This document shows, in pieces, positions 4,444-37,148 of a stretch of DNA of 48,150 nt; the first letter of the stretch is position 1; every line of letters begins with the position of its first letter. Under the pieces are notes generated by a model. It saw only the letters and a list, made by a program, of their open reading frames with translations. It had not been told where the DNA came from and ran no database searches. The stretch is from Flavobacteriales bacterium (GTDB lineage: Bacteria; Bacteroidota; Bacteroidia; Flavobacteriales; Flavobacteriaceae). The translations under genes were made by a program, and so were the position numbers. The stretch lies in assembly GCA_004213995.1 (NCBI GenBank), contig SGZJ01000009.1, positions 1 to 48,150 on the forward strand, written 5' to 3'.

Positions 4444-4875
4444 TTAAAAATTAGAAATAAAAAGGTTGCTGCCATTTATTTCTACTCTATAAGCTTTCAG
4501 ACCGCATTCTAGAGCTACTGTTAAAGACTGACCTGTGATAAGACTGTAAGAGTTTTCATCTGGGCAATTGCTTACACATTCTAATCCATTAATAGTCATA
4601 GTTGAACAGCTAGTAGGTATTCGGTTGGGGTCACTAGCATCCCAAGCTAAATATCCTGTGCCAGAATTTGTGACTATAATACCTCCATTTCCGATATTAG
4701 GAATATAAACTGAGTTACTAATAAAGTTTAATTGGTTATACTGTGGTAGATTGAGGTTGATTTCATAATTAACTTCAATATTTGCCAAATATCTGCAGTT
4801 GGATGAAATTTCATCTTTTTTACATGTAAATATCGTTAATACAACAAATATTAAAATGATTGAGATTTTTTTCAT
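4444..4875 (-). CDS. Rieske-fold-like lipoprotein lacking cluster histidines
   Basis: A 143-residue protein with a lipoprotein signal (hydrophobic stretch, then Cys18 in a TIFTC lipobox). The second half follows the pattern of small Rieske-domain lipoproteins I recall from flavobacteria: a YLAWDASDP strand, a first Cys (Cys90-Ser-Thr92), a second loop (Cys104-Pro-Asp-Glu107), then SLITGQ and ECGLKAYRVEINGSNLFIS, resembling the Rieske ending L-(x)-YRV-x-hydrophobic. Canonical Rieske motifs are CxH and CxxH; here the histidines are Thr and Glu, so an ordinary [2Fe-2S] cluster is unlikely. Cys100 and Cys124 are further cysteines. It is probably anchored in a membrane facing the periplasm or outside. 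Function unknown. Rieske kinship is my pattern reading, not proof. Confidence 0.72.
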   Translation of the reverse strand: MKKISIILIFVVLTIFTCKKDEISSNCRYLANIEVNYEINLNLPQYNQLNFISNSVYIPNIGNGGIIVTNSGTGYLAWDASDPNRIPTSCSTMTINGLECVSNCPDENSYSLITGQSLTVALECGLKAYRVEINGSNLFISNF

Positions 4876-4918
4876 TTAGTGAAATTACAACAAAAAGATT
4901 TTTCATTTAAATATTTTG

Positions 4919-4926
4919 TATATTTG
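4919..4926 (+). promoter_or_regulatory. -7 promoter element for greA
   Basis: TATATTTG is an exact match to TAnnTTTG. Transcription would start around 4932-4934, which is the first base of a stem-loop with a T-tract. No good -33 box is visible at the expected spacing. Confidence 0.6.
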
Positions 4927-4932
4927 GTTTAT

Positions 4933-4955
4933 ATCTCGTGAGAACGAGATTTTTT
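4933..4955 (+). terminator. hairpin plus T-tract in the greA leader
   Basis: ATCTCGT (4933-4939), loop GAGA, ACGAGAT (4944-4950), then T to 4955: a perfect 7-bp stem followed by six T in all. It has intrinsic terminator form in the plus direction only. It lies directly after the predicted transcription start of greA and 37 bases before its start codon. The gene to its left is on the minus strand and begins at 4875, so it is not an obvious terminator for an upstream plus-strand gene. It may be an attenuator or a 5'-protecting hairpin. Confidence 0.6.
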
Positions 4956-4991
4956 GTATTTATATAGTAAGTTTTAATTAATTATAAAGTG

Positions 4992-5465
4992 ATGAGTAAT
5001 ATTTCATATTATACAAAAGAAGGATTAAAGAAATTAAGAGATGAATTAAGTCAGTTAAAAGACATTGAAAGACCAAAAGCTTCAAATGCTATTGCAGAAG
5101 CAAGGGATAAAGGAGATTTGAGTGAAAATGCAGAATATGATGCTGCTAAAGAAGCTCAAGGTATGTTAGAAATGAAAATCTCTAAACTTGAAGAAACTTT
5201 GTCTGGAGCCAGAGTAATTGACGAATCTCAGTTAGATAATTCTAAAGTTTTAGTTTTATCTAAGGTAAAGATTAAAAATAAGTCAAATGGAATGGAAATG
5301 TCTTATACTTTAGTAGCTGATGGAGAAGCAGACCTATCAGCTGGAAAACTATCTGTTAACTCTCCTATTGGTAAAGGTTTATTAGGTAAATCATTGGGTG
5401 ATATTGCAGAAATTAAAGTCCCTAACGGAACGATCAAATTCATTATTACTGATATTTCAAGATAA
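4992..5465 (+). CDS. greA: transcription elongation factor GreA
   Basis: A 157-residue protein from the ATG at 4992; a GTG directly before it is less likely. It has the N-terminal coiled coil with the typical signature ERPKASNAIAEARDKGDLSE, continuing into NAEYDAAKEAQ, and the C-terminal FKBP-like domain ending in PIGKGLLGKSLGD. GreA inserts its coiled coil into the secondary channel of RNA polymerase and stimulates cleavage of backtracked RNA. The length is normal. The stop shares a base with the HIT gene's ATG, so the two are co-transcribed. The leader contains a terminator-like hairpin (4933-4955), a possible point of self-regulation. Confidence 0.97.
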   Translation: MSNISYYTKEGLKKLRDELSQLKDIERPKASNAIAEARDKGDLSENAEYDAAKEAQGMLEMKISKLEETLSGARVIDESQLDNSKVLVLSKVKIKNKSNGMEMSYTLVADGEADLSAGKLSVNSPIGKGLLGKSLGDIAEIKVPNGTIKFIITDISR

Positions 5466-36397: not shown

Positions 36398-37102
36398 TTA
36401 TTTATCATCCTCTGGAGCCTCTTCAGCAGGAGCCTCTTCAGCAGGAGCCTCTTCAGCAGGAGCTTCTTCAGCAGGAGCCTCTTCAGCAGGAGCTTCTTCA
36501 GCAGGAGCTTCTTCAGCAGGAGCTTCTTCAGCAACAGCTTCTTCAGCAGGAGCTTCTTCAGCAACAGCTTCTTCAGCAACAGCTTCTTCAGCAGGAGCTT
36601 CTTCAGCAGGAGCTTCTTCAGCAACAGCTTCTTCAGCCACAGCTTCTTCAGCAGCGGTTACTTGAGCTTCAATTCTAGCTTTATTCACTAGTTTTTCAGC
36701 TTCTAATTCTTTAGCTTTTTTACTAGCTTCTTCTTTTTCAAGTGAGCTAATTTTAGAATCTATTTTAGATGCTTTTTCTTCTAACCAACTTGCAAGTTTT
36801 GTTTCAGCCTCTTCTAATGTTAGAGCACCTTTTGCCACGCCTCCTAGTAAGTGATGTTTGAGCATTGCACCTTTATATGATAAAATATTTCTAGCAGTGT
36901 GAGTGGGTTGCGCACCATTTTGAAGCCACTTAACTGAGCTGTCAACATCTAGCTCTATTGTCGGAGGGTTTAAATTTGGATTGTAACTTCCTAATTTTTC
37001 CAAATACTTACCATCTCTTTTTGATCTGGTATCAGCTGCGACTATCCAATAATAAGGTTTTCCTTTTTTACCGTGTCTTTGTAATCTAATTTTTACTGGC
37101 AT
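36398..37102 (-). CDS. rpsP: 30S ribosomal protein S16 with repeat-bearing C-terminal extension
   Basis: A 234-residue protein. The first 80 residues are standard S16: MPVKIRLQRHGKKGKPYYWI, then DTRSKRDGKYLEKLGSYNP. Bacteroidota S16 proteins often carry an Ala/Glu/Lys-rich extension; here residues 81-150 are charged and helical, and 151-230 are 16 tandem copies of AEEA(P or V), ending EDDK. The tail would be strongly acidic (32 Glu in 80 residues) on an otherwise basic protein, probably solvent-exposed and disordered. S16 is needed for 30S assembly. A -7 element lies at 37156-37149, and rimM follows past a terminator. The tail length probably varies between strains. Confidence 0.95.
   Translation of the reverse strand: MPVKIRLQRHGKKGKPYYWIVAADTRSKRDGKYLEKLGSYNPNLNPPTIELDVDSSVKWLQNGAQPTHTARNILSYKGAMLKHHLLGGVAKGALTLEEAETKLASWLEEKASKIDSKISSLEKEEASKKAKELEAEKLVNKARIEAQVTAAEEAVAEEAVAEEAPAEEAPAEEAVAEEAVAEEAPAEEAVAEEAPAEEAPAEEAPAEEAPAEEAPAEEAPAEEAPAEEAPEDDK
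36413..36652 (-). repeat. 16 tandem copies of a 15-bp unit in rpsP
   Basis: Plus-strand units start every 15 bases from 36413 as (t/a)gg, aac or cac followed by AGCYTCTTCAGC, encoding AEEAP or AEEAV on the minus strand. From the protein N-terminus the fifth residue runs V V P P V V P V and then eight P. The eight P units at the 3' end of the gene differ only by the last unit's first base and a GAG/GAA change, pointing to recent expansion at that end. The period is a multiple of three, so copy-number change keeps the reading frame. Confidence 0.97.
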
Positions 37103-37116
37103 AATAATTAATTTGT

Positions 37117-37131
37117 GAGGTTCTCGACCTC
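37117..37131 (-). promoter_or_regulatory. small hairpin in the rpsP leader
   Basis: GAGGT (37117-37121) pairs with ACCTC (37127-37131) over a five-base loop, in the leader between the -7 element and the rpsP ATG at 37102. It may be a regulatory or RNA-stabilising element, but the stem is short. Confidence 0.3.
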
Positions 37132-37148
37132 TGTTATTAATGAGAGCG

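Follow-up and report, generated by a model that had tools for sequence, protein, structure and literature searches.

What does a hairpin of terminator form do at the very first bases of a greA transcript? GreA influences transcriptional pausing, fidelity and DNA break repair, and the question is raised by the greA locus of a 48,150-nucleotide stretch of flavobacterial DNA (the window), which is contig 45 of a 1.27 Mb genome that is 76% complete.

All elements of the locus are on the plus strand, except for the left-hand gene. The window has TATATTTG, a sigma-A type −7 box (TAnnTTTG), at 4919–4926, and this box is kept across the family. In F. psychrophilum the TAnnTTTG box is reported at −12 to −5 relative to mapped starts (PMC9723704), which places the predicted greA start here at the A in position 4931. 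The stem begins two bases past this start, at the seventh base after the box, and forms a perfect 7-bp hairpin of ATCTCGT (4933–4939), loop GAGA (4940–4943) and ACGAGAT (4944–4950), corresponding to +3 to +20 of the predicted transcript. It is followed by a T-run (4951–4955), which reaches the predicted +25, counts six T if the last stem base (4950) is included, and is the expected end of a terminated RNA of about 26 nt. The rest of the leader (4956–4991) is A+T-rich and brings the predicted leader length to 61 nt. By eye it contains neither a second hairpin nor the three-codon open frame found in other genera. The greA gene itself (4992–5465) encodes a transcription elongation factor of 157 aa, matched by Pfam PF03449 and PF01272 and by the NCBIfam GreA equivalog NF001263; its start codon is the ATG at 4992 or, alternatively, the GTG at 4989. 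The first-pass annotation had described the box, the perfect GAGA-loop hairpin and the T-tract before greA, and the letters of the window bear this out, while its placement of the hairpin where the greA transcript begins agrees with the start predicted at 4931.

The left-hand gene (4444–4875, minus strand) is lipoprotein-like by eye and has no match in a Pfam scan. It is divergent, and the hairpin is thus ruled out as its terminator; the first-pass annotation had judged it not needed there. In some other families the upstream gene seemingly runs in the same direction as greA (L117 and L121, by eye), and there the hairpin could also end it.

Taken alone, the window provides weak evidence, and it is conservation that carries the strong evidence. 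With −8.0 kcal/mol the stem is of modest stability, the hairpin is one of two terminator-like sites in a 3.5-kb consensus scan where 1.0 (sd 1.3) is expected, and the 131-nt leader has no excess stability, with 45 of 200 shuffles folding equally well or better. The layout was formulated as a strict rule, which asks for a TAnnTT[TC]G box and, no more than 12 nt after it, a hairpin of at least 5 contiguous pairs and at most −5 kcal/mol with a T-rich tail. In the window, a rule-passing hairpin follows 1 of 89 TAnnTTTG boxes. The specificity scan of the genome covered the window and 338 kb of the same genome, that is 386,150 bases with 674 TAnnTTTG boxes, of which 106 are noncoding, meaning outside open frames of 100 codons. 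A rule-passing hairpin of any size follows 12 of the 674 boxes. Three of these 12 boxes are noncoding, and among them the greA box alone has a hairpin no longer than 30 nt. A repeated element was considered and rejected: the pattern search of the own genome gives a single exact copy and, when up to three mismatches are allowed, 31 occurrences vs 40 for the reversed-pattern control per strand. A hairpin that passes the rule is found no more than about 120 nt past the stop in 7 of the 42 open reading frames of the window. The clearest gene-end intrinsic terminator of the window, by our judgement, is AACCTGTTAATTTAAAATTAACAGGTT followed by T (−11.5 kcal/mol), after the minus-strand frame 36398–37102.

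The comparison with relatives starts from 33 greA loci, taken from five genomes of the genus of the window and from the best GreA-scoring genomes of the family. Box, hairpin and T-run are found in 33 of 33 of these leaders, and TAnnTTTG is intact in all 33 leaders of their alignment A1. A covariance model made from the 33 leaders was run on 299 family genomes with E up to 0.1 and gave 147 matches in 142 genomes and none in the other 157. The greA places listed for the family genomes number at least 150. Among the matches listed with a greA place, 112 of 117 sit 20–152 nt upstream of greA (median 66), and without the own matches of the 30 training genomes the count is 82 of 87, again among the matches listed. 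Five of the 117 listed matches are not upstream of greA, two of them (in genomes G224 and G066) on other contigs.

The 33 closest leaders alone have no two-sided covariation, and their pairing is no higher than in shuffles; more distant leaders were therefore fetched, namely those of 20 of the 157 genomes without a match and of 40 weaker matches. Among the former, 17 of 20 pass the strict rule with other stems (for example, ATCCTC..GAGGAT), the layout is present by eye in two more (L050 and L060) and absent in one (L049). Among the latter, 32 of 40 precede greA and 8 do not. Eight loci have no greA in the stretch (L072, L079, L089, L090, L091, L093, L100 and L102, the last of which stops at a contig end). 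Two of these places, L089 and L090 from two genomes, have TAnnTTTG followed by AATCTCGTTTTC..GAAAACGAGATTTTTTT, so a similar start-proximal hairpin is possibly present at other genes. With these eight and four duplicates removed from 161 loci, 149 leaders are left, 100 from the family of the window and 49 from other families.

In the family of the window, the final 190 nt include the box in 95 of the 100 leaders. The rule is passed by 93 of the 95, compared to 115 of 1900 (6.1%) when the downstream sequence is shuffled. By eye, five leaders (L022, L060, L101, L114 and L141) have box and hairpin farther from the ATG, and L050 has its hairpin behind a variant box, TATATTAG. L049 has no proximal hairpin and carries a different, longer one 33 nt from the box. 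We note that 64 of the 100 family leaders were chosen for or by the model; the other 36 pass strictly in 31 cases and by eye in 35. Outside the family the box is present in 37 of 49 leaders, 25 of which pass, and 24 of the 49 fail; shuffles pass in 40 of 740 cases (5.4%). The stems of the other families differ in sequence from those of the family of the window. In one of them, f4 (L151, L156 and L158), the hairpin lies 25–32 nt from the box, and in L151 and L156 two mutually exclusive stems are possible by eye, so an antiterminator may exist in this family.

A second set consisted of 80 named genomes, mostly Flavobacteriaceae by title, some of them perhaps the same genomes as in the first set. 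Here 71 of 80 leaders pass, with shuffles at 104 of 1580 (6.6%); other TAnnTTTG sites of the named loci also pass the strict rule in 19 of 243 cases. All nine misses have a T-tailed hairpin by eye, six of them behind a variant box and three (L251, L255 and L256) without a clear box. The leaders are related by descent and the shuffle counts overstate their independence. The hairpin is real and is not a product of chance. The comparison with relatives that had been proposed as a check was thus carried out, and the hairpin is kept in both close and distant relatives (93 of 100 leaders in the family and 25 of 49 in other families).

The stems of 98 of the 100 family leaders could be placed in a common register, L049 and L064 being absent from the table and the row of L017 being wrong, as it is paired with a more distant 3′ arm. 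The stem sequence varies among them, with compensating changes, while the pairs are largely kept. Pair 4 is U-A in 18, U-G in 27 and C-G in 53 leaders; pair 5 is C-G in 84, U-A in 8 and U-G in 6; pair 6 is G-C in 41, G-U in 31, C-G in 13 and A-U in 7, with six unpaired. Over the seven pairs of the 98 leaders there are 583 Watson-Crick, 86 G-U and 2 A-C cells. Pairs 6–7 are paired in 91.3% of cases vs a shuffled mean of 75.3%, and among the 27 distinct stems in 70.4% vs 48.7%, with none of 2000 shuffles as high in either comparison; these pairs were not required in stem picking, but the longest stem was preferred, which makes the test not fully independent. Loops vary between species, and GAGA, the loop of the window, is not conserved among them. 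The tail positions 1–5 of the 98 leaders are T in 100, 97, 100, 89 and 81%, respectively, vs 34% in the rest of the leaders. The distance from box to stem is 5–11 nt in the 98 leaders, mostly 6 or 7, while that from hairpin to ATG ranges from about 20 to over 200 nt. Thus, the element is tied to the start of transcription and not to the start of translation.

The leaders have further features between the hairpin and greA. A three-codon open frame, often ATG-AAG-TTA-TGA, whose TGA overlaps the greA start in ATGA, occurs in 49 of the 100 leaders of the family and in 29 of the 80 from named genomes. It spans −8 to +4 of greA, for example in L012, L015 and L018, and could serve translational coupling or be part of the start context. 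It is absent from the five loci of the genus of the window, and in the window itself it is lost at 4984–4995. Several leaders (L007, L014, L020, L025, L029 and L031) have a second terminator-like hairpin between the first one and the ATG, for example GCTGAATTTAATTCAGC followed by ATCTTTT.

We suggest that the element is a promoter-proximal intrinsic terminator acting as an attenuator of greA with release of an RNA of about 26 nt, which we consider the probable reading of these sequences. Four other readings have to be weighed against it. A chance or A+T-rich background effect would suit the weak signal of the window taken alone, but shuffles pass in 5–7% of cases vs 93 of 95 family leaders with the box, 25 of 37 such leaders from other families and 71 of 80 named ones, so that we regard this reading as negligible. 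The window copy, whose two 7-bp arms match perfectly around a 4-bp spacer and adjoin the promoter, could also be a palindromic DNA operator for a repressor that overlaps the transcription start. Such a site would be symmetrical as DNA, whereas the arms of the relatives deviate from symmetry by G-U in 86 cells and only rarely by A-C (2 cells); the symmetry of the arms as double-stranded DNA is thus not kept across the 98 leaders. As G-U outnumber A-C 86 to 2, what is conserved is an RNA structure on the greA strand rather than a DNA operator. The spacer, in addition, ranges from 3 to about 30 nt and the stem sequences of other families are unrelated, all of which makes the operator highly improbable. 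Only slightly better placed is the reading in which the short released RNA matters most, as a small RNA that acts in trans like GraL of E. coli, and attenuation of greA is secondary. GraL is reported to act in trans as well as in cis (PMC6829880), but in the flavobacterial leaders the loop and flanks, the parts freest to pair with targets, are not conserved, and the stem sequence varies between families. We find this reading improbable.

The remaining rival deserves more weight, although we still consider it unlikely. The hairpin may be a 5′-terminal stem-loop that shields greA mRNA from decay dependent on the 5′ end, with no termination involved. Stabilizing stem-loops of this kind, known from ompA, have their stem only a few bases from the 5′ end. 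The greA hairpin would resemble them if the predicted start is right, its stem starting 1–7 nt from the predicted 5′ end in the 98 leaders, about the position needed; the pairs are also kept as the stem sequence changes. The ompA type, however, is not known to require a U-run, while the greA hairpin has one, and protection leaves it unexplained: the T-run accompanies the hairpin even 150–200 nt from the ATG. A general stabilizer would also be expected at other genes, whereas in 386 kb no compact noncoding case besides greA was found.

Returning to the attenuator, we note what speaks against it: the stem is modest, the leader folds no better than shuffles, the position at the 5′ end also suits protection, and the layout passes in only 25 of 49 leaders outside the family. 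Some relatives have an interrupted T-run, GATTTTCCTATTTT (for example, L053, L058 and L113) or TTTTCCTATTTT, and such tails would be expected to terminate poorly there.

Under the proposed mechanism, the polymerase would leave the promoter and the hairpin would form once the transcript emerges from the exit channel. At the U-run, at about +26, some polymerases would release the RNA of about 26 nt and others would go on to make greA mRNA. The early stop probably cuts many greA messages short and in this way limits the amount of GreA. If transcription begins where predicted, only 1–7 nt lie ahead of the stem, which leaves no space for an antiterminator upstream of it and excludes classical sensing through alternative pairing in such transcripts. 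The read-through fraction would then be either constant or determined by factors that act directly on the polymerase. By analogy with E. coli, GreA is the first candidate for such a factor, and its involvement is a possibility that we rate clearly below even.

In E. coli, about two thirds of greA transcripts are reported to be terminated to give GraL (PMC6829880). In vivo, termination in the greA leader increases with catalytically active GreA; in vitro, the effect was reported as not observed, and an additional factor is suspected (PMC6829880). GraL and, as we infer, the element of the window both have an intrinsic terminator between the promoter and greA, near the start, which gives a short RNA and limits greA mRNA. 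They differ in proportions: the GraL terminator is preceded by 19 nt and GraL transcripts measure 37–59 nt (PMC6829880), while 1–7 nt and an RNA of about 26 nt are expected here. The GreA dependence of termination is a feature of GraL, shown in vivo, and would extend to the window by analogy only.

Terminators in greA leaders have a wider distribution. Naville and Gautheret described the greA- and rnk-leaders, 5′ terminators upstream of greA orthologues in Proteobacteria, bacilli and Clostridia, and reported a clear antiterminator in each cluster as well as a lower stability of 5′ terminators than of 3′ terminators (2010, PMC2965389). At the sequence level, their greA leaders share with the flavobacterial one a terminator-like hairpin and U-run between promoter and greA. 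Their leaders have an antiterminator, while the flavobacterial leader has no upstream RNA for one if the predicted start is right. Hence, we do not file it as a member of this class, although it may still work like one. The idea that greA is controlled by its own leader, raised earlier as a parallel to E. coli, stands as the best explanation, and greA-leader terminators have been described in other bacteria (PMC2965389).

For Bacteroidota, we found no report of a greA-leader attenuator in the open literature, as searched through main texts. The terms bacteroid- and flavobacter- are absent from the main text of PMC2965389, and greA as a whole word is absent from the main texts of PMC9723704, PMC7366714, PMC7815308, PMC10319736 and PMC8297930; their supplementary tables, including 64 structured 5′ regions of F. 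psychrophilum, may list greA. An Rfam scan of the window leader gives no family at the gathering score, the best match in 4880–5000 having 20.1 bits vs a gathering score of 72. The flavobacterial ribosomal-protein leader S16-Flavobacteria (RF03138) is likewise a cis-acting RNA leader, but it belongs to another gene and has another structure. It has a match elsewhere in the window, at 37107–37141 on the minus strand (60.5 bits vs gathering 35.7).

Terminators in greA leaders are thus already known elsewhere, and the flavobacterial form, predicted to have no room for an antiterminator, would be a new variant. Tentatively, and with much more doubt than for the attenuator as such, we propose a minimal attenuator in flavobacteria and perhaps in much of Bacteroidota. 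In it the terminator would lie at the very start of the transcript, any sensor made of RNA would be absent, and the elongation complex on its way out of the promoter would itself be the sensor. GreA would set its own supply according to whether or not it clears backtracked complexes at the U-run, and the RNA of about 26 nt would be a by-product.

The layout is kept in nearly all leaders of the family examined, at the same position and with a changing sequence. This natural version consists of a promoter, a hairpin and a U-run, and with so simple a system the question of a direct action of GreA on an early terminator may be easier to address. For Bacteroidota, a phylum with little mention in the attenuator literature searched, it would be an additional, recurrent leader element.
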